From Paracoccaceae bacterium (GTDB lineage Bacteria; Pseudomonadota; Alphaproteobacteria; Rhodobacterales; Rhodobacteraceae), in the NCBI GenBank assembly GCA_021741245.1, contig JAIOYF010000006.1:62001-126000 (forward strand): a stretch of 64,000 nucleotides of DNA, read 5' to 3'. The position numbers were made by a program, and so were the translations under genes. The stretch's first letter is position 1, and each line of letters begins with the position of its first letter. This document shows, piece after piece, positions 5,524-58,417 of this stretch. The notes below the pieces were generated by a model. The model worked only from the letters and a program-made list of their open reading frames with translations. It was not told the DNA's origin and ran no database searches.

Positions 5524-7020
5524 ATGTTCGAAAGCCTATCAGAACGCCTTGGAAGCGTCTTTGACCGCCTGACGAAACAGGGTGCGCTGTCCGAGGCGGA
5601 TGTGATCACGGCACTGCGTGAGGTGCGGGTCGCGTTGCTGGAGGCGGACGTTTCCTTGCCGGTTGCGCGCGATTTCATGAAGCGTGTGCAAGACAAGGCA
5701 ACCGGGGCTGCGGTGACAAAATCGGTCACGCCGGGCCAGATGGTCGTCAAGATCGTCCATGATGAATTGATCCGGGTCTTGGCCGGGGATGGTCCTTCGG
5801 ACGCCCTCAAGATCGACAATCCGCCTGCGACGATCCTTATGGTCGGTCTGCAAGGTTCGGGCAAAACCACGACCACGGCCAAACTGGCCAAACGGCTGAA
5901 AGAGCGGAACGGCAAGCGGGTGCTGCTGGCCTCGCTTGACACCAACCGCCCCGCCGCGATGGAACAGCTTGCCATCCTTGGCTTGCAGATCGGCGTGGAC
6001 AGCCTGCCCATCGTCAAGGGCGAGTCGGCGGTTCAAATCGCCAAACGCGCCAAGACACAGGCCGCCATGGGCGGCTATGACGTCTTGTTCCTTGATACCG
6101 CAGGCCGTTTGCACATCGACGAAGTGCTGATGGATGAGGTGCAGTCGGTTCGCGACATCGCCAACCCGCGCGAAACCCTGCTGGTGGTTGATGGCCTGAC
6201 AGGTCAGGATGCGGTGAACGTCGCCACCGAATTCGATGGCAAAGTCGGTATTTCCGGCGTCGTCCTGACTCGAATGGATGGCGACGGGCGTGGCGGTGCG
6301 GCCCTGTCGATGCGGGCCGTTACGGGCAAGCCCATTCGCTTTGTCGGTCTTGGCGAAAAGATGGATGCGATCGAGACCTTCGAGGCCGAACGCGTCGCGG
6401 GTCGCATTCTGGGCATGGGCGATATCGTCGCCTTGGTCGAAAAGGCGCAAGAAACCTTTGAGGCCGAACAGGCCGAGCGGATGGCCAAGCGCTTTGCCAA
6501 GGGTCTGTTCAATATGAACGACCTTCGGTCGCAGCTTGAACAGATGATCAAGATGGGTGGCATGCAGGGCCTGATGGGCATGTTGCCGGGCATGGGTAAG
6601 ATGGCCAAAGCTGCCGAAGAGGCTGGCTTTGACGACAAGATGTTGCGCCGTCAGATCGCCTTGATCAATTCGATGACCAAGCGCGAACGCGCGAACCCCG
6701 ATCTTTTGCAAGCCAGCCGCAAAAAGCGCATCGCTGCCGGGGCGGGGCTGGAGGTGCAGGATCTGAACCGTCTGCTGAAACAGCACAAGCAGATGGCGGA
6801 TATGATGAAAAAGATGGGCAAGGGTGGCGGCATGAAGGCCGCGATCAAGCAGATGATGGGCAAGGGTGGCTTGCCAGACCCCGCCAAAATGACGCCCGAT
6901 CAGTTGGAAGAGGCCGCGCGCGGCATGAAGCAAGGCTTGGGGCAGGGCGGTGGCTTTCCCGGCATGCCAAAAGGCCTGACGTTGCCATCGGGTCTGTCGG
7001 GGTTGATGAAAAAGAAATGA
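5524..7020 (+). CDS. ffh: Signal recognition particle protein Ffh
   Basis: A 498-residue SRP54-type GTPase. The N domain (about residues 1–85) is followed by the G domain with the P-loop GLQGSGKTTT near residue 108, the DTAGR motif near 192 and the TRMDGDGRGGAA closing motif; the C-terminal M domain is rich in methionine (MGGMQGLMGMLPGMGKM) and binds signal sequences and SRP RNA. It delivers nascent inner-membrane proteins to FtsY. Length is slightly above the family's usual 450 residues because of a Gly/Met-rich tail. AGGAGA before ATG supports the start. It opens an operon-like run with four acetyltransferases, a chorismate mutase and ribosomal genes. Confidence 0.98.
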   Translation: MFESLSERLGSVFDRLTKQGALSEADVITALREVRVALLEADVSLPVARDFMKRVQDKATGAAVTKSVTPGQMVVKIVHDELIRVLAGDGPSDALKIDNPPATILMVGLQGSGKTTTTAKLAKRLKERNGKRVLLASLDTNRPAAMEQLAILGLQIGVDSLPIVKGESAVQIAKRAKTQAAMGGYDVLFLDTAGRLHIDEVLMDEVQSVRDIANPRETLLVVDGLTGQDAVNVATEFDGKVGISGVVLTRMDGDGRGGAALSMRAVTGKPIRFVGLGEKMDAIETFEAERVAGRILGMGDIVALVEKAQETFEAEQAERMAKRFAKGLFNMNDLRSQLEQMIKMGGMQGLMGMLPGMGKMAKAAEEAGFDDKMLRRQIALINSMTKRERANPDLLQASRKKRIAAGAGLEVQDLNRLLKQHKQMADMMKKMGKGGGMKAAIKQMMGKGGLPDPAKMTPDQLEEAARGMKQGLGQGGGFPGMPKGLTLPSGLSGLMKKK

Positions 7021-20445: not shown

Positions 20446-21213
20446 TCAGCGGGTTTGTTCGTGCTGGAATCTTTGACGGGCAATGGCCTCGTTCTTTTCC
20501 GATTTCACCTGTTCATTCAGCGACTTCTCGACATAGGTCAGATGCGCCTCAACCGCCTGCCGTGCCAAGACCGGGTTGCGCGCCTGAAGCCCATCATTGA
20601 TGGCGCGGTGCTGATCCAACAGCACATCCCGGGTCGTGCGGTTTTTGAACATCATTTGCCGATTGTAGAAAACGCCTTGGCGCAGCAGATCATACATCGA
20701 CCGCATCATATGAAGCATGATGACGTTATGGCTTGCTTCGATGATCGACAGGTGGAATTCGGCGTCCAGCGTTGCCTCATCCGTCGGATCCCGCTTTGCA
20801 TGCGCGGCTTCCATTTTGCGAAAGATCGCATCCACCACCATCAGATCGGTTTCAGAGGCGAGTTTCGCCGCACGTTCGGCTGCTAGCCCCTCCATATCCC
20901 GTCGAAAAGAGATGTAGTCAAACACGGCCTCATCGTGGCTTGCAAAAAGGGCAACCAATGCGGGCGCGAAGGCAGAACCAAGCACTTCGGCCACATAGAT
21001 CCCTGCACCCGCCCGGCTGACCAAAAGACCCTTGTCTTGCAGATCGGCCACGGCATCGCGCAGACTGGGGCGCGACACACCCAAGCGGTCTGACAATTCG
21101 CGTTCGGACGGCAGACGCTCGCCCGGTCGCAAAATACCACGCAAGATCAGTTGCTCAATCTGTTTGACAACAGATTGGGAGAGTTTTTCAGTTTGAATTT
21201 TCGTAAAAGGCAT
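20446..21213 (-). CDS. GntR-family regulator, FadR subfamily
   Basis: A 255-residue regulator: N-terminal winged helix (QIEQLILRGILRPGERLPSERELSDRLGVSRPSLRDA) and a helical FCD ligand-binding domain with the metal/acid-binding residues D, H, H (AEFHLSII, LDQHRAI, EAHLTYVE). FCD proteins usually sense carboxylates such as pyruvate, lactate or glycolate; the exact ligand is not deducible. The start is the ATG beginning MPFTKIQTEKL; nine upstream codons read from a TTG are less likely. A palindromic candidate operator precedes the gene, suggesting autoregulation. It is convergent with atpF, and no target gene is adjacent. Confidence 0.85.
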   Translation of the reverse strand: MPFTKIQTEKLSQSVVKQIEQLILRGILRPGERLPSERELSDRLGVSRPSLRDAVADLQDKGLLVSRAGAGIYVAEVLGSAFAPALVALFASHDEAVFDYISFRRDMEGLAAERAAKLASETDLMVVDAIFRKMEAAHAKRDPTDEATLDAEFHLSIIEASHNVIMLHMMRSMYDLLRQGVFYNRQMMFKNRTTRDVLLDQHRAINDGLQARNPVLARQAVEAHLTYVEKSLNEQVKSEKNEAIARQRFQHEQTR

Positions 21214-21233
21214 GTGCGCGCACTCATGGATAT

Positions 21234-21252
21234 TGGTCAAAACCTATGACCA
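21234..21252. promoter_or_regulatory. Candidate operator of the GntR/FadR regulator
   Basis: TGGTCA-AAACCTA-TGACCA is a perfect 6+6 bp palindrome with a 7-base centre, about 20 bases upstream of the regulator start. FadR-subfamily operators have this general TGGT…ACCA form, so autoregulation is plausible. Confidence 0.5.
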
Positions 21253-33389: not shown

Positions 33390-34778
33390 TCAGGCGTGGA
33401 TTGCCCCATCGCCACAGGCGAGGGCAGCCTCACGCACGGCTTCGCTATAGGTCGGGTGTGCATGGCAGGTCATGGCAAGGTCCTGAGCAGATGCGCCAAA
33501 TTCCATCGCCACGCAGATCTCGTGGATCAGATCGCCTGCCATGGGCCCGATGATGTGGGCCCCAAGAATGCGGTCGGTGTCTTTGTCGGCAAGGATTTTG
33601 ACAAAGCCCTCGCCCTGAAACACGGCCTTGGCGCGGCCATTGCCCATGAAGCTGAACTTGCCAACCTTGTAGGCGCGGCCCTGTTCTGTGAGTTGCTCTT
33701 CGGTGGCCCCTACAGAGGACACTTCTGGCGTGGTGTAGACGACGCCGGGGATCACCCCATAATTCACGTGCCCGTGCTTGCCCGCCATGATCTCGGCCAA
33801 TGCCATGCCCTCATCTTCGGCCTTATGGGCCAGCATCGGGCCGATGATTGCATCACCTATGGCGTATAGACCCTTGATATTGGTGGCATAATGCGCGTCG
33901 GTCTTGACTTGGCCGCGTGGCAGCATCTCAACCCCCAAAGCCTCAAGCCCCAGACCCGCGACATAGGGTTTGCGGCCAGTGGCGACGAGGACGACATCGG
34001 CGTCAAGGCTGGCCTCGGAGTCATCCTTGCGCAGTTTATAGCTGACCTTTGCGCCTGCTTTCGTGACTTCTGCCCCCTGAACGGCGGCCCCCAAGATGAA
34101 CTTAAGGCCCTGTTTTGTCAGGATTCTTTGGAATGCCTTGGCCACCTCGGCATCCATTCCGGGGGTGATGGCGTCGAGGTATTCCACCACCGTGACCTGC
34201 GTGCCCAGACGGGCATAGACCGAGCCCATTTCCAGCCCGATCACGCCCGCGCCGATTACCACCATGGATTTGGGAATGGATTTCAGGGTGAGCGCCCCGG
34301 TGGAGGTGACGATTGTCTCCTCATCCACAGTGACGTTGGGAAGGCTTGATGCCTCGGAACCCGTTGCAATCACAATGTTTTTTGCGCTGTGAACCTCATC
34401 TCCGACCTTGACCTTGCCAGCCTCGGGGATCGTGGCCCAGCCTTTGAGCCAAGTCACCTTGTTCTTTTTGAACAAAAACTCGATGCCCTTGGTGTTCTGG
34501 CCGATCACATCGTCCTTGTAGCCCAGCATCTTGGCCCAATCGACGGTGGGCTTGGCCCCCATGATCCCCATTTTCTCAAAGTTCTCATGCACTTCGTGGA
34601 GTTGATGGGTGGCGTTCAACAGCGCCTTCGACGGAATGCAGCCCACATTGAGGCAGGTGCCGCCGAGCGTCTCGCGACCCTCCACCACAGCCGTTTTCAG
34701 GCCCAGCTGGGCGCAGCGAATGGCACAGACATAGCCGCCGGGGCCTGCGCCGATGATGATGACGTCAAATTCTGCCAT
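33390..34778 (-). CDS. lpdA: Dihydrolipoyl dehydrogenase (E3)
   Basis: A 462-residue FAD flavoprotein. The redox pair Cys42-x4-Cys47 lies in [16 protein letters not shown], the FAD motif is [10 protein letters not shown], and the C-terminal [14 protein letters not shown] holds the His-Glu catalytic pair. It re-oxidises the lipoyl groups of 2-oxoglutarate dehydrogenase and can serve pyruvate dehydrogenase and the glycine cleavage system. It is the last gene of the suc run, separated from sucB by a MAPEG gene, a secreted protein gene and a small hypothetical gene; the GGAAACGACCC before ATG is a modest ribosome-binding site. Confidence 0.96.
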
Positions 34779-36219: not shown

Positions 36220-37419
36220 TTACAGATCCATCAGCAACCGGCGTGGGTCTTCCAATGCTTCTTTGACGCGCACGAGGAAGGTCACAGCGCCCTTGCCGTC
36301 GACGATGCGGTGATCGTAGCTGAGCGCCAGATACATCATCGGGCGGATGACGATCTGACCATTGACGACGACTGGGCGGTCCTGAATCTTGTGCATGCCA
36401 AGGATGCCCGATTGCGGCGGGTTCAGGATGGGCGAGGACATGAGGCTGCCATAGACACCACCGTTCGAGATGGTGAAGGAGCCGCCCTGCATTTCGGCCA
36501 TGCTCAGCTTGCCATCACGGGCGCGCAGGCCCAACTCGCTGATTTTCTTTTCGATTTGCGCGAAACCCATCTGGTCGGCGTCGCGCACGACCGGAACAAC
36601 GAGGCCATTTGGTGTGCCGACCGCCACGCCCATGTGGACGTAGTTCTTGTAGATCACGTCGCCGCCATCAATCTCGGCGTTGACTTCGGGCACTTCTTTC
36701 AGCGCATGGGTGCAGGCCTTGACGAAGAAGGACATGAAGCCAAGCTTGACGCCGTGCTTTTTCTCGAACGCGTCCTTGTATTCGTTGCGCAAGGACATGA
36801 TGCCGGACATGTCCACCTCGTTATAGGTGGTCAGCATGGCGGCGGTGTTTTGCGCGTCTTTCAGGCGGCGGGCGATGGTGGCGCGCAGGCGCGTCATCTT
36901 GACTCGCTCTTCGCGGGCGGCGTCATCGGCGGCCACGGGGCCGCGGGGCACCGAAATCGGGGCCGGAGCCGGTGTTGGGGGCGGGGCAGACGGCGCGGAG
37001 GCGCGTGCCACGTCTTCTTTCATGATGCGGCCATCGCGGCCCGTGCCGGTGACCTGATCGGCGGTCAGACCAGCCTCGGCCATGGCTTTCTTGGCGGAAG
37101 GGGCGTCTTCGACGGATTTTGCAGCGGGGGCTTCGGTTTTTGCCTCTGGTTTTGCGGCCTCAGCCTTTGGCGCGGCAGCGGTGGCCCCTTCGGAGATGAT
37201 GCCAAGGCGCGCATTTGCGGCGACCGTCGCCCCCTCGGGGGCGAGGATTTCGGCCAGCACGCCTGAGACGGGCGCGGGAACTTCGACCGAGACCTTGTCG
37301 GTTTCAAGTTCACACAGCATTTCGTCTTGCTTGACCACATCGCCGGGTTTTTTGAACCAGGTCGATACGGTGGCTTCGGATACGGATTCGCCCAGGGCAG
37401 GCACCATCACATCGGTCAT
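36220..37419 (-). CDS. sucB: Dihydrolipoyllysine succinyltransferase (E2 of 2-oxoglutarate dehydrogenase)
   Basis: A 399-residue E2. The N-terminal lipoyl domain carries the lipoylated Lys in [14 protein letters not shown], a Pro/Ala-rich linker follows ([13 protein letters not shown] and PPTPAPAP), then a peripheral-subunit-binding domain ([21 protein letters not shown]) and the catalytic domain with the His-Asp pair in [12 protein letters not shown]. It forms the 24-mer core that passes succinyl groups to CoA. GGAGG nine bases upstream of ATG. It is 97 bases from sucA with a hairpin terminator between. Confidence 0.97.
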
Positions 37420-37516: not shown

Positions 37517-40477
<2,961 letters not shown>

Positions 40478-40545
40478 GTCGTGCACCTCTCCTCGGGTGG
40501 CGCCAAAGTCTTTGTGGCGAAAGGGGGCGCCCTTTCGCCTGCGTG

Positions 40546-40717: not shown

Positions 40718-41602
40718 TTATTTTCCCAAGGCTTTCATGACGGCCTCGCCCAACGAGGCGGGGCTGTCGGCAACGATGATCCCTGCCGCTTTCATCGCCT
40801 CGATCTTCGATTCCGCGTCGCCCTTGCCACCGGCCACGATGGCCCCGGCATGGCCCATGCGGCGGCCGGGGGGGGCGGTGCGGCCCGCGATGAAACCAGC
40901 GGTTGGTTTCCAGCGGCCCTTTTTACGCTCATCCGCAAGGAATTGTGCAGCCTCTTCCTCCGCCGCGCCACCGATTTCGCCGATCATGATGATCGAATGG
41001 GTTTCGGGGTCGGCAAGGAACAGTTCCAGCACGTCGATATGCTCGGTGCCCTTGATCGGGTCGCCGCCGATGCCAACAGCCGAGGACTGGCCAAGGCCAA
41101 GGTCGGTTGTTTGCTTGACCGCCTCATAGGTCAGCGTGCCGGATCGGGAGACAACACCGACAGACCCGCGACGATGGATATGGCCGGGCATGATGCCGAT
41201 CTTGCAAGCGTCTGGTGTGATGACACCGGGGCAGTTCGGCCCGATCAGGCGGGATTTGGACCCTTGCAAGGCGCGCTTGACCTTCATCATGTCAAGCACA
41301 GGGATGCCTTCGGTGATGCACACGATCAACTCCATCTCGGCGTCGATCGCCTCAAGGATGCTGTCGGCGGCAAAGGGTGGCGGGACGTAGATCACAGAGG
41401 CATTCGCTTCGGTCATGGCTTTCGCTTCATGCACGGAATTGAATACCGGAAGGTTAAGGTGCGATGTGCCGCCTTTGCCGGGCGTCACGCCGCCAACCAT
41501 CTTGGTGCCATAAGCGATGGCCTGTTCCGAGTGGAACGTGCCTTGGCTGCCGGTAAAGCCTTGGCAGATGACGCGGGTGTTTTCGTTGACGAGTACGGCC
41601 AT
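40718..41602 (-). CDS. sucD: Succinyl-CoA synthetase subunit alpha
   Basis: A 294-residue subunit with an N-terminal CoA-binding Rossmann domain ([31 protein letters not shown]) and the phosphorylated His251 in [15 protein letters not shown]. With SucC it makes succinate, CoA and ATP or GTP from succinyl-CoA. AGGAGG precedes the ATG. The two subunit genes are not adjacent as usual: a lipoprotein gene lies between them. Confidence 0.97.
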
Positions 41603-41892: not shown

Positions 41893-43086
<1,194 letters not shown>

Positions 43087-43196
43087 GGCAATAGCGTCCC
43101 TTGGGTCGTGGAATTTCCGGCGTGATGCCATGGAAAACGCCGCAAACAAACACAGAAGTAGGTTGAATGCCCAATAACGGAAGGAAATCCGACATT

Positions 43197-43248
43197 TGTG
43201 ATCACAGGATTTCGAAGTGTGATCACACTTTCGATTCCCGTGATCACC
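43197..43248. promoter_or_regulatory. Triple palindromic operator array upstream of sucC
   Basis: Two perfect TGTGATCACA palindromes (43197–43206 and 43218–43227) and a third, CGTGATCACC (43239–43248), are centred exactly 21 bases apart, that is two helical turns. The nearest site is about 115 bases upstream of the sucC start; the farthest overlaps the end of the neighbouring methyltransferase gene. TGTGA and TCACA directly abut, without the six-base spacer of CRP/FNR sites. The same palindrome with the same 21-base spacing occurs before sdhC, so this looks like the operator of a shared dimeric regulator. Confidence 0.7.
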
Positions 43249-43987
43249 TTGCCTGACTCTCTGCCTCTGAGCCGGGTGCAAGGGGTGATTCGTCTTGCCG
43301 ACGGGCCAAGATGGGGCGGGCGAGAAACAGGATCTGACCGCGGGGCAGCATCCCTTGCCCGATGTCCACCGCAAAGCCTGCCGCATGGGCCGCCGCAATC
43401 ACCTGATCGCGGCCAAAGTGATAGGGGGGGCGGTTTGGGTGGGTGACGACACCATCGGCTTGACGCCATGGACCAGAGTGCCCATCGGGTGCCACGAACA
43501 CGGTAAACAGCAAACATGAAAGCCGGGAAAGCCGCTGACGCGCCGAGATGAGCGCGCTTTGCAGATCAGCAAGGGGCAGGTGCGTAAAGACGCCAAAGGC
43601 GATGGCATAGTCGATCTGATCGCCCGGAACACCGGGAAAGGTGAAATCGGCATCAGCAATCAGATGATCCATCGGCAGGCGGTCCCTGTCGGGCAATTCG
43701 ACCTCATGCCCGCGCAGCATCAACGCATGGCTTGCGTCGGTGGCCCAATAGTGGCCGGGATCAAGATAGGGCACGGCCTTGCAGCCAAGGCGCAGTGACC
43801 CCGCGCCGATATCAAGCAAACGGTGGTGCGGCTGCAACCCTGCGTCCAGCAAGGCCAGCATCTGCAGCCTGCCCGTCTCGTCCCAGCGGCCACCCACGAT
43901 GTCACGATGACGCCCCGCAGCAAGCGCACGATCATAAAAGCCGGGCACCAGATAGGGCGATTTGGGGGGGGACTCAGGGGCAACCAT
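43244..43987 (-). CDS. Class I SAM-dependent methyltransferase
   Basis: A 247-residue methyltransferase. Motif I is [16 protein letters not shown], followed by YWATDAS as the acidic loop and the [17 protein letters not shown] motif IV region. It has a short N-terminal extension and a C-terminal beta extension. The ATG beginning MVAPESPPK is chosen; 34 upstream codons would run into the opposite gene's leader. It is divergent from an FkbM-type methyltransferase, and its stop lies inside the sucC operator array. Substrate unknown. Confidence 0.75.
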
Positions 43988-44090
43988 TGGCGGCTTTCTT
44001 CGAGGATCTGCGTTCAGTGCGGTAGAAATTGCGGCATTTATGTGGTTCAGTTTTGGAAAGCAAATAATACAACAGAGCAGTTTGGGCAAA

Positions 44091-53995: not shown

Positions 53996-54326
53996 CCCCT
54001 TTGGTCTTTGATGACCCGCGGCGCTGACGCAAAGGCCCGCAAGGCAACCCTGCTTTGCGCCGCCTGTGCCAGACCATGATCTCGGTCACGAACTATTTGG
54101 TATTTTGCGATTACCTTGGTTCAGCTGAGTCGCGCCAAATGTGATCACAGCCAGAAAATTTGTGATCACATCGGTGGGAATTTTGAATAATTGACGCGGA
54201 ATTGCCAAATATGCGGCATCGCAGCACGTGACAGGTCTGAAAAATCCGTTATTCAGGGCATCATAGATCGAAGCGGGCCCGGACCGATCATTGCGCCGGG
54301 ATACCACAGCGACGAAGGGAACCGAT
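53996..54326 (+). promoter_or_regulatory. Intergenic region upstream of sdhC with two TGTGATCACA operators
   Basis: Two perfect TGTGATCACA palindromes lie at 54140–54149 and 54161–54170, spaced exactly 21 bases, as in the sucC array. About 160 bases separate the closer site from the sdhC start. Downstream, TTGAAT-18-AAATAT (54183–54212) could be the promoter, placing the sites 13–43 bases upstream of its -35, where either activation or repression is possible. No gene is supported in this 331-base region. Confidence 0.6.
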
Positions 54327-54713
54327 ATGGCTGAAGCAAAGCGGGTCGAGCGGCCCCTGTCTCCGCATCTGCAAATCTACCGCATCCAATTGACATCCGT
54401 CACCTCCATCCTGACGCGCATCACCGGAAACGCGTTGATCGTCGGGGTTATCCTTGCGGTTTGGTGGTTGCTGGCCGCGGCGACATCGGATGCCTATTTC
54501 GCAACGGCAAATGCCGTGGCCACAAGCTGGTTTGGCGATCTGGTCTTTACCGGCTCGCTTTGGGCGGCTTGGTATCACTACCTCGCCGGGATGCGGCATC
54601 TTTACTACGATGCTGGCAAGGGCCTTGATCTTCCGACGGCGGAGAAACTGGGTTGGGCCGTCATCGGCGGGTCGGTCGTCTTGACGATCATCACCATCAT
54701 TTTGGTTCAGTGA
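54327..54713 (+). CDS. sdhC: Succinate dehydrogenase cytochrome b556 subunit
   Basis: A 128-residue membrane anchor of three transmembrane helices. LSPHLQIYRIQLTSVTSILTRITG is the family N-terminal signature with quinone-site residues, and YHYLAGMRHLYYD carries the heme b ligand His84. Together with SdhD it anchors SdhAB and reduces ubiquinone. GAAGGG precedes the ATG. It opens the sdh operon. Confidence 0.95.
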   Translation: MAEAKRVERPLSPHLQIYRIQLTSVTSILTRITGNALIVGVILAVWWLLAAATSDAYFATANAVATSWFGDLVFTGSLWAAWYHYLAGMRHLYYDAGKGLDLPTAEKLGWAVIGGSVVLTIITIILVQ

Positions 54714-54720
54714 GGGCAAC

Positions 54721-55092
54721 ATGCGGTATCTGACCGATCGTAAGCGCGCCATCGGCAAAGGCGCATCTGGCACGGGCACGGAACATCATTGGGCCATGCA
54801 GGTTTCTGCTGTGGGTCTGGCTTTCCTTCTGCCCGCATGGCTCTACGTGTTCGGCAAGGCGCTTGGCCAATCGCGCGAGGCGGTCGTGGCCACCTTTGGC
54901 CATCCCTTTCCAGCAATTCTGACGGGATTGTTGCTGGTTGTGGGAATGCGACACTTCGCCAAGGGCGCGACTATGATGATAGAAGATTATGCGCATGGGT
55001 CGGCGCGCAAGATTGCGGTGATGTCGGTCACCAGCCTGTCTTGGGTGATCGCGGCCACGGGGCTTTATGCTCTGGCCCGTATGGCGCTTTGA
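54721..55092 (+). CDS. sdhD: Succinate dehydrogenase membrane anchor SdhD
   Basis: A 123-residue anchor with three helices. The [19 protein letters not shown] stretch carries the second heme ligand region (His78) and a quinone-site Tyr90, as in other alphaproteobacterial SdhD proteins. It is seven bases after sdhC and ends ten bases before the sdhA start. Confidence 0.93.
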
Positions 55093-55102
55093 AGGAACGA
55101 AC

Positions 55103-56905
55103 ATGACTGCTTATCCATACGAAGTGCATGATTACGACGTGGTTGTGGTGGGTGCCGGCGGCGCGGGCCTTCGGGCCACGCTAGGCATGGCCGAACAGGG
55201 CCTGCGCACCGCCTGTGTGACCAAGGTGTTTCCAACCCGCAGCCATACCGTGGCGGCGCAAGGCGGCATTGCAGCCAGCCTTGGCAATATGGGCCCGGAT
55301 TCATGGCAATGGCACATGTACGACACCGTCAAGGGGTCTGACTGGCTGGGCGATACTGACGCGATGGAATATCTGGCGCGTGAGGCACCAAAGGCGGTTT
55401 ATGAGTTGGAGCATTACGGCGTGCCCTTCTCGCGCACCGAAGAAGGCAAGATCTATCAGCGTCCCTTTGGTGGCCACACCACCGAATATGGCGAGGGCCC
55501 CCCGGTGCAGCGCACCTGTGCCGCAGCCGACCGCACGGGCCACGCGATCTTGCATACGCTTTACGGCCAAAGCCTGAAGAACAACGCTGAATTCTACATC
55601 GAATACTTCGCCCTTGATCTTGTGATCACAGACGGTCGCTGCACGGGCGTTGTGGCATGGAAGCTTGATGACGGCACCATGCATGTGTTCAACGCCAAGA
55701 TGGTGGTCCTGGCCACCGGTGGCTACGGCCGCGCCTATTTCAGCGCGACCAGCGCCCATACCTGCACCGGCGATGGCGGCGGCATGGTGGCGCGGGCTGG
55801 CCTGCCGCTGCAAGACATGGAGTTTGTGCAATTCCACCCGACGGGCATCTATGGCTCCGGCTGTCTGATCACCGAAGGCGCGCGGGGGGAGGGTGGATAC
55901 CTGACCAACTCCAACGGTGAGCGGTTCATGGAACGCTATGCGCCGCATTACAAAGACCTTGCACCCCGCGATTACGTCTCGCGCTGCATGACATTGGAAA
56001 TCCGCGAAGGGCGTGGCGTGGGCGCGAATGGCGACCACATCCATCTGCACCTGAACCACCTGCCCAAAGAAACGCTGGACCTGCGTCTGCCGGGCATCTC
56101 GGAATCGGCACGGATTTTTGCCGGCGTGGACCTGACCAAGGAACCGATCCCGGTTCTGCCAACGGTGCACTACAACATGGGCGGCATTCCCACCAACTAT
56201 TGGGGCGAGGTGCTGAACCCCACGGCAGATAATCCTGACGCCACTTTCCCCGGCCTGATGGCTGTGGGTGAGGCGGGCTGCGCCTCTGTGCATGGGGCGA
56301 ACCGTCTGGGGTCAAACTCGCTGATCGACCTTGTGGTGTTTGGCCGGGCTGCGGCCATTCGCGCGGGCCAGATTGTTGACCCCAAAGCATCCAACGCCCC
56401 CGTCAATACCGCCGAGGTCGACAAGGCGCTTGCCCGCTTTGACGGGCTGCGCCATGCCTCGGGCGCGATTGGCACGTCGGACCTGCGGCTTGAGATGCAG
56501 CGCACGATGCAGGCTGATGCCGCCGTGTTCCGCACCGAAAAGACGCTGGCCGAGGGTGAGGTGAAGATGACCGCAATCGCGGGCAAGATGGCTGATCTAA
56601 AGGTCACCGACCGCAGCATGGTCTGGAACAGCGATCTGATGGAAACGCTGGAACTGACCAACCTGATGCCAAACGCGCTGGCCACGATCTATGGCGCGCA
56701 TGCCCGCACCGAAAGCCGTGGCGCCCACGCGCATGAGGATCACCCCACCCGCGATGACGCCAACTGGCGCAAGCATTCGCTGGCCTATGTCGATGGGGCA
56801 AAAGTGCGTCTGGACTATCGCGCTGTGCATGTGGACCCGCTGACGACCGAGGCCGAGGGCGGCATTTCGTTGAAGAAAATCGCCCCTGCTGAGCGGAAGT
56901 TCTGA
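55103..56905 (+). CDS. sdhA: Succinate dehydrogenase flavoprotein subunit
   Basis: A 600-residue FAD protein. The dinucleotide motif GAGGAG is near residues 17–22, FAD is covalently bound at His48 in SHTVAAQGG, and the substrate Arg/His residues are in HPTGIYG and the [14 protein letters not shown] end of the FAD domain. It oxidises succinate to fumarate. AAGGAACGAAC precedes the ATG. The sdhB gene does not follow directly; two small lipoprotein genes are inserted. Confidence 0.98.
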
Positions 56906-57027
56906 TGCAGGATGCGCCGGCATATGGGCCGCTTTCCGCCTCTGCACAGGTTTGTGCGGGGCGGGGGGCTTTTCATCGCCGGGGCCGCGGCTCTTACTAT
57001 GGGGTCAACCCATACAGGAGAGCCGTG

Positions 57028-57339
57028 ATGCATCGAATTGGTCCTATGGCCTTGATCTTGTTGGCTGGCTGCTCGCCGCAGGATATGGCTGATCAGCTGG
57101 GTCGCCGCGCCGCCGAGTCGGTGGTGATGCCAGTGATGGCAACCCGTATGCCAAGTGGTCGCGCGCAGGCCGCAACCACCTGCATCGTCCAGAACGCCAC
57201 AGCGGCCGAAGTGCAGGCCCTTGCGCGCGATGTGGGCGTGGTGGCAGGCACCTTGACCACGTCGAACATCGCAACAATTGCCGCGCGTCCCGAAACACAA
57301 GCCTGCTTTGCCGCCGCTGGCGTGCCGATGGTGGGGTAG
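57028..57339 (+). CDS. Small lipoprotein between sdhA and sdhB (1)
   Basis: A 103-residue lipoprotein: signal MHRIGPMALILLAGC with lipobox LLAGC, then a mature part with two cysteines (TTCIVQN and QACFAA) and an alanine-rich helix. GGAGAGCC precedes the ATG at good spacing. It lies inside the sdh operon. From memory, a gene pair in this position occurs in Rhodobacter. Function unknown. Confidence 0.7.
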   Translation: MHRIGPMALILLAGCSPQDMADQLGRRAAESVVMPVMATRMPSGRAQAATTCIVQNATAAEVQALARDVGVVAGTLTTSNIATIAARPETQACFAAAGVPMVG

Positions 57340-57343
57340 GGTG

Positions 57344-57637
57344 ATGAAGAAACTTGTCCTTCTTGCCCCGATCGCGCTGCTGTCCTGCGGGCCGATCCCT
57401 TTGGCGCAGGCGGAACGTCAATGTCTGGAACGCGCCCGTCTGGCGCAGCAACCGCGTGGAGAAGTCGCCTTGGGCGCAAACTCGAACGGCAAGGCGGTTG
57501 GCAGTTTTGAAGTGAACATCAGTTCCGACTTCATCCTTGGGCGTGATCCGTCTGCCGTTTATGACATCTGCGTTCAACAGAAATCCGGGCAGGCCCCCAG
57601 CCGCCCACTCTACTCATTCCCGGAATGGAAGGGATAA
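57344..57637 (+). CDS. Small lipoprotein or secreted protein between sdhA and sdhB (2)
   Basis: A 97-residue protein with an N-terminal signal that contains a lipobox-like LLSC (Cys15) followed by GPIPLAQA, so processing could be by either lipoprotein or ordinary signal peptidase. The mature part has two cysteines (RQCLERA and DICVQQ) and a VGSFEVNISSDFILGRDP segment. It starts four bases after the preceding stop with weak GTAGGG upstream, and ends three bases before sdhB. No family recognised. Confidence 0.65.
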   Translation: MKKLVLLAPIALLSCGPIPLAQAERQCLERARLAQQPRGEVALGANSNGKAVGSFEVNISSDFILGRDPSAVYDICVQQKSGQAPSRPLYSFPEWKG

Positions 57638-57640
57638 GAT

Positions 57641-58417
57641 ATGGTCCAGTTTACGCTTCCCAAGAACTCAACAATCCGCACTGGCAAGACATGGCCAAAG
57701 CCGGATGGCAAGAATGTGCGGAAATTCCAGATCTACCGCTGGAACCCCGACGATGGCAAAAACCCGCAGGTTGATACCTATTTCATCGACATGGACAAAT
57801 GCGGTCCCATGGTTCTGGACGCGCTGATCAAGATCAAGAATGAGATTGATCCAACGCTGACCTTCCGCCGGTCGTGCCGTGAGGGGATCTGCGGATCTTG
57901 TGCGATGAACATCGACGGCATCAACACCTTGGCCTGTATCTATGGGCTGGACGAGGTGAAGGGCGATGTCAAAATCTACCCGCTGCCGCACATGCCGGTG
58001 ATCAAGGACCTGATCCCCGACCTGACCCATTTCTATGCCCAGCATGCATCCATCATGCCGTGGCTGGAAACCAAAACCAATCGCCCGGCCAAGGAATGGC
58101 GTCAGTCGATTGAAGACCGCGAAAAGCTGGATGGTCTGTATGAATGCGTCATGTGCGCCTCGTGCAGCACCTCTTGCCCAAGCTATTGGTGGAACAGCGA
58201 CAAATACCTTGGGCCCGCAGCCCTTTTGCACGCCTATCGCTGGATCATCGACAGCCGGGATGAGGCAACGGGCGAGCGTCTGGATGATCTGGAAGATCCG
58301 TTCAAGCTTTATCGGTGCCACACCATCATGAACTGCGCCAAGACCTGCCCCAAAGGGTTGAACCCGGCCAAGGCGATTGCCGAGATCAAGAAGATGATGG
58401 TCAGCCGGGTGGTCTGA
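57641..58417 (+). CDS. sdhB: Succinate dehydrogenase iron-sulfur subunit
   Basis: A 258-residue subunit with three clusters: [2Fe-2S] ligands Cys79, Cys84, Cys87 and Cys99 (CREGICGSC…C), and [4Fe-4S] and [3Fe-4S] ligands in [12 protein letters not shown] and in [12 protein letters not shown]. It passes electrons from FAD to the membrane quinone site. It ends the operon, followed by a strong terminator. Confidence 0.98.

Follow-up and report, generated by a model that had tools for sequence, protein, structure and literature searches.

Probable operators in front of sucC and sdhC

Within the window (the whole 64,000-nucleotide stretch of Paracoccaceae bacterium DNA analyzed here), sucC is followed on the minus strand by sucD, sucA, sucB and lpd, and three short palindromes lie upstream of it.

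33390..34778, minus strand: lpd, dihydrolipoamide dehydrogenase (named from its translation)
36220..37419, minus strand: sucB/odhB (named from its translation)
37517..40486, minus strand: sucA/odhA, 2-oxoglutarate dehydrogenase E1 (named from its translation)
40718..41602, minus strand: sucD (named from its translation)
41893..43086, minus strand: sucC (ATP-grasp_2 and Ligase_CoA domain matches)
43122..43150, minus strand: tentative sucC promoter, -35 at ~43150-43145 and -10 at ~43127-43122, placed by eye
43197..43206, unstranded: operator 1, TGTGATCACA, perfect copy, proximal to sucC; 111 bp from its 8-mer core to the ATG
43218..43227, unstranded: operator 2, TGTGATCACA, perfect copy, 21 bp upstream of operator 1
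43239..43248, unstranded: operator 3, CGTGATCACC, matching TGTGATCACA at 8/10 positions; core GTGATCAC perfect at 43240-43247

The initial annotation had described two perfect and one near-perfect copies of a 10-bp palindrome at this place, with centers 21 bp apart, and both statements held: TGTGATCACA occurs twice and CGTGATCACC once, at 43197, 43218 and 43239. The core GTGATCAC is perfect in all three (starts 43198, 43219 and 43240), and the start-to-start step is 21 bp throughout. Operator 3 overlaps the end of an upstream methyltransferase-like ORF (43244-44089). The sucC promoter of the window was placed solely by offsets taken from some relatives, its own hexamers being weak by eye.

A second pair of the same spacing, which does not figure in the initial annotation, lies in front of sdhC.

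54140..54149, unstranded: distal sdhC operator, TGTGATCACA, exact copy
54161..54170, unstranded: proximal sdhC operator, TGTGATCACA, exact copy, 21 bp from the distal one
54228..54255, plus strand: probable sdhC promoter, -35 GTGACA at 54228-54233, 16-bp spacer, -10 TATTCA at 54250-54255
54327..58417, plus strand: sdhC-sdhD-sdhA-(two small ORFs)-sdhB (sdhC by its Sdh_cyt match; sdhD, sdhA and sdhB from translations)

The two cores GTGATCAC of this pair lie within 54141-54169, and the -35 hexamer begins 58 bases past the proximal one. The TGTGA and TCACA half-sites of the operators are those of CRP, and sites of CRP/FNR-type regulators read TGTGA-N6-TCACA or TTGAT-N4-ATCAA; here, however, the half-sites abut with zero gap in every sucC and sdhC copy, as the initial annotation had pointed out for those at sucC, which makes a regulator of that type highly improbable.

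Frequency and conservation of the 21-bp pair

Allowing at most one mismatch, TGTGATCACA occurs seven times in the window; shuffled versions had a mean of 1.49, and none of 100 shuffles reached seven. The whole genome (4,196,036 bases) contains six exact copies, two in front of sucC, two in front of sdhC, one inside sdhA (55621) and the last within an ORF that is permease-like (L001). The core GTGATCAC is present seven times in the window, five times as the sucC and sdhC operators and twice inside coding sequence, at 55622 (sdhA) and at 5602 (an ffh-like gene, named from its translation). With 157 copies in the 4.2-Mb genome, against 3 for the reversed control, the core is not rare by itself, and it is therefore the spacing that carries the signal. 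A whole-genome search for pairs 21 bp apart, a check that the initial annotation had proposed, returned three exact pairs against the ~0.006 that we calculate for 157 randomly placed sites, and the pair pattern read backwards was found in none of 61 genomes. A text search of the literature for TGTGATCACA gave papers unrelated by title, the bacterial one carrying it, in the part of the text available, as a primer sequence (PMC12724174).

In those 61 genomes we scanned for pairs of GTGATCAC separated by 3 to 33 bases (31 possible spacings). Matches were obtained in 35 genomes, including 32 of the 37 from the window's own family, Rhodobacteraceae, and 56 of the 71 family matches listed had the 21-bp spacing (a hand count; forward matches over all family genomes total 87). 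The expectation that related genomes would keep the pair was thus borne out. For a wider view, the exact 21-bp pair was also sought in a public genome collection, which gave at least 120 stretches containing 127 pairs; 30 loci from the 61-genome scan contributed 29 further pairs, in 23 of them. Among the matches listed for these 150 loci fetched by pattern, 130 of 156 exact pairs precede sucC (79) or sdhC (51), a three-site array being scored as two pairs. Despite the abundance of the core, this conservation, together with the fixed spacing and the restriction to two operons, leaves chance palindromes as a vanishingly improbable explanation.

The remaining 26 listed pairs precede neither gene. 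Five are from Rhodobacteraceae: three lie next to mdh or close to the edge of their locus (L100, L127 and L131), where sucC would fall off the end, and two are in long ORFs (L125 and L183). The other 21 come from organisms that are not Alphaproteobacteria by title; 17 of these sit inside an ORF of at least 150 codons, and the TCA query proteins found no match beside any of the 21. One such locus (L166, Sphingobacterium) has seven copies of GTGATCAC at 2362-2684, placed at multiples of 21 (21, 42 and 84 bp), and no TCA gene was found beside them. By record title, two of the sucC pairs belong to other orders, one to a Robiginitomaculum MAG (L130, Maricaulales) and the other to a strain of Maritalea mobilis (L123, Hyphomicrobiales), which may reflect a layout that extends beyond Rhodobacterales, transfer, or a wrong title or bin.

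Three-site arrays typify the source genus. By hand count among the matches listed, overlapping 21+21 arrays occur in 11 of its 13 members and in 0 of 12 from the rest of the family; three genomes of the genus and four others of the family have pairs whose matches fall outside this tally. Some arrays have a further site at 25, 26 or 36 bp. At L053, L056, L060 and L061, an extra operator flanks the 21-bp array of sucC at a distance of 26 or 36 bp, about half a turn off phase.

Promoter position at sdhC and sucC

At sdhC we measured the offset from the proximal operator to the -35 in 46 of 52 listed sequences, using a motif chosen after viewing the sequences (GTGAC[A/T] with a -10-like hexamer, judged by eye, 16-17 bases on); the other six had no such match at 40-90. 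The offsets fell into four classes, 46-47 (2 sequences), 57-60 (35), 68-70 (5) and 78-80 (4), with none in between. We discarded two additional matches, at 22 and 133, whose loci also contain one at 58. The steps between classes are near one helical turn (~10.5 bp), and the fit improves slightly with a period of 11.0. Four random classes would be equally concentrated with p ~0.014, a value to be read with the classes having been chosen from the data and the related genomes being non-independent.

At sucC, the main visible class among 74 listed sequences, which include the window twice (repeated as L057), has GTTTA at 44-46 (13 sequences) and TATA at 70-72 (10 sequences); single strays lie at 36, 59, 69 and 103.

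Known regulators with related sites or targets

The core GTGATCAC has been identified, in the available text of PMC6365646, among the sites bound by AkgR, an activator in R. sphaeroides, and the GntR-family protein RSP_0981 is predicted, in the accessible part of PMC4344238, to regulate sucCD, sdh and sucAB-lpd. The window resembles this regulon on both counts, with three copies of the operator at 43198-43247 in front of sucC and two at 54141-54169 in front of sdhC. It differs in having three sites at sucC, and the source genome has no exact operator at its own regulator gene. We take AkgR and RSP_0981 to be the same protein, which was reportedly tested in an mBio study. In the literature searched, which did not extend to the primary AkgR study, we found no description of the phasing of these sites.

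The LacI-family regulators CceR, GapR and PckR are likewise predicted to act on TCA genes (PMC4052901, PMC4344238, in the parts available), and the motif predicted there for RSP_1663 is [A/G/T]GTT-N6-8-AAC[A/C/T] (PMC4344238). Compared by eye, the GTT-N6-8-AAC inverted repeat of CceR is unlike the palindrome described here. RSP_1663 is presumably CceR.

Search for the regulator

The source genome contains 37 GntR matches. We clustered 31 of them with 50 of the 72 listed matches from seven small pair-bearing relatives, which left three widely shared groups, A, B and C. Protein C was the first candidate, since it is the sole GntR match within the window and the best in the genome; in NCBIfam it scores best against PdhR, without reaching the cut-off.

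20446-21240, minus strand: protein C, PdhR-like GntR/FCD; adjoins ATP synthase F0 genes (names from translations)

Protein B is encoded on contig C9 of the source genome (L030:1456-2106) and has GntR and FCD domains, its nearest solved structure by sequence being E. coli McbR/YncC (PDB 4p9f, E 4.9e-20), a protein with a different regulon. Protein A is encoded on contig C26 of the source genome. Match cut-offs differed among the three: 1e-60 for C, 1e-30 for A and 1e-25 for B.

Protein B matched in the same 32 of 37 family genomes as the pairs, with at least 63% identity in 31 of them; in G034 (91% complete), the pair is present and the B match is a 37% paralogue. Four family genomes (G019, G023, G029 and G032) have sucC and sdhC, and in these B was not found and no exact operator occurred within 300 bp of sucC or in the 1500 bp before sdhA (G023 is 82% complete); G032 has one single-mismatch copy before sucC. 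Genome G036 had neither pair nor B, and it is uninformative because the sucC search gave a 54% paralogue alone, with no orthologue found, and sdhA is cut by a contig end. Its locus (L369) and a second G019 copy (L370) had no operator site. We then turned to 29 further genomes, reached via named loci (30 were hand-picked among the listed stretches and one was left out). Protein B was present at 71% identity or more in 18 of 19 genomes with TCA pairs and in none of 10 with other pairs. Allgaiera indica (G073; L138 and L362) has exact pairs at both sucC and sdhC and gave no B match at E 1e-20. This case counts against B as the regulator, and so does the paralogue-level match in G034.

A GntR gene was expected next to the sites, and none was found in loci L035-L184. 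Among 20 further stretches, GntR matches appeared in L203 and L204 alone; that in L204 is B, and the L203 protein (G050) has as its best match in the source genome the L031 protein, at 40%. The B gene lies at the lpd end of the suc genes in G018, G013 and Defluviimonas (L358), unlike RSP_0981, which is numbered on the sdh side; this counts against protein B being AkgR. In Fertoeibacter niger (L359), the B gene lies ~2 kb behind sdhB, and this position would suit the RSP_0981 numbering.

On these distributions protein B follows the pairs best in the genomes examined, with C close behind it and the discrimination between the two thin. It is unlikely, in our estimate, that another conserved GntR protein, the PdhR-like C or protein A, binds the sites. 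Protein A is present in all 32 pair-bearing family genomes, and C, which is encoded in the window and is near PdhR by NCBIfam, is nearly as good as B: it occurs in 30 of the 32 (missing from G007 and G033; 32 of 37 in the family overall) and is missing from three of the four operator-free genomes (G023, G029 and G032). Its absence from G007 proves little, since that genome is 82% complete. The separation of B from C thus depends mainly on G033, which is 99% complete and has two pairs and no C, and on G019, which has C and no operators. Protein A, for its part, is also present in the operator-free G019 and G032. Exact GTGATCAC was found upstream of none of the seven A and none of the six C orthologues examined, against 21 of 38 B genes. 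Candidates A and C were set aside on distribution and the lack of an own operator, C thinly.

Operator at the gene of the probable regulator

The exact GTGATCAC copies at B genes lie close before the start codon; all 21 are outside the source genus (21/28), and none of the ten B genes examined within it has one. A TTGAC stands ahead of the operator in 20 B genes, with a gap of N13 in 18 (one of them counted via a second TTGAC), N14 in one and N15 in one. This places the operator downstream of the -35, with its far end inside the expected -10, an arrangement that suits autorepression. In many Rhodobacteraceae outside the source genus, the regulator probably acts on its own gene as a repressor, using one site.

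In the genus Pseudomonas, weak B homologues occur in 22 of 59 genomes (26 loci), and six of the 26 loci have an in-frame ATG with GTGATCAC 46 or 47 bases upstream; the homologues with the palindrome at this position are 33-37% identical to B. A matching site is placed at -47 to -40 of PS417_07240 in the available text of PMC6365646. That protein, a GntR regulator of a Pseudomonas deoxyribonate cluster, shares the palindrome and is 32% identical to AkgR according to the same text (PMC6365646); compared by this published description, it differs in that one site precedes its own gene and in having other target genes. In an alignment, two features of B recur in the Pseudomonas homologues: arginine R47 and, in the recognition region, the P-x-R-E core. 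A separate arrangement was seen in seven Pseudomonas loci (L334, L337, L341, L342, L344, L345 and L346), where two GTGATCAC copies stand 62-63 bp apart upstream of an AkgR-like gntR. This gap equals six helical turns, or three times 21; in L338 it is 75 bp. In several of these loci an ORF of ~17 codons, noted by eye, lies between the sites and gntR.

Discussion

We propose, with a probability of roughly 0.82, that the sites serve as tandem operators for an AkgR-type GntR/FCD regulator that activates sucCDAB-lpd and sdhCDAB. The figure allows for protein C, which tracks the pairs nearly as well as B. The regulator is most likely an orthologue of AkgR, probably protein B, which has GntR and FCD domains; the assignment draws on the published motif, the predicted targets, the co-occurrence of B with the sites and the operators at B genes and Pseudomonas homologues, and RSP_0981 is known here by description rather than by sequence. 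The locus would thus be a further instance of a regulatory system already known, with binding and activation predicted. What we add are the near-helical steps between operator and -35 at sdhC and the three-site arrays of the source genus.

One dimer would bind each GTGATCAC palindrome, and two dimers at sdhC or three at sucC, 21 bp apart, may bind cooperatively. Because 21 bp is two turns, these dimers would lie on the same face of the helix. This agrees with the initial annotation, which had proposed a dimeric regulator on one face of the DNA controlling the sucC-lpd run: a dimer-type palindrome is repeated there on one helical face, and relatives conserve its spacing. Centered ~87 to 129 bp upstream of the putative start sites, the dimers would activate both operons in response to a metabolite, probably through contact with RNA polymerase, although the predicted positions, at about -87 and -97, are distant for such contact.

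The array could instead repress sucC and sdhC, as a single site probably does at the regulator gene; there the space between the -35 and -10 holds the operator, which runs into the expected -10 hexamer, so the protein can probably repress. We nevertheless regard repression of the two operons as improbable, since their operators are ~44 to 80 bases upstream of the predicted -35, in steps at sdhC, which suits activation, and since AkgR is termed an activator in the available text of PMC6365646.

Returning to activation by an AkgR-type protein, a stronger form of the proposal is that its array is helically registered: neighboring dimers would have to lie two turns apart and the array as a whole would have to face the polymerase, so that evolution could shift it only by whole turns. 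We give this form even odds. The layout lends itself to a simple test of whether activation by GntR/FCD proteins, most of which have been studied as repressors, depends on phase.

The analysis links a DNA array that had lacked an explanation to a probable regulator, and the layout is widely conserved in Rhodobacteraceae. These bacteria are common in the sea. If the registered form is true, their Krebs-cycle switch would be a face-of-helix device with strength graded by two versus three sites, and an autorepression loop would have been acquired in some lineages or lost in others.
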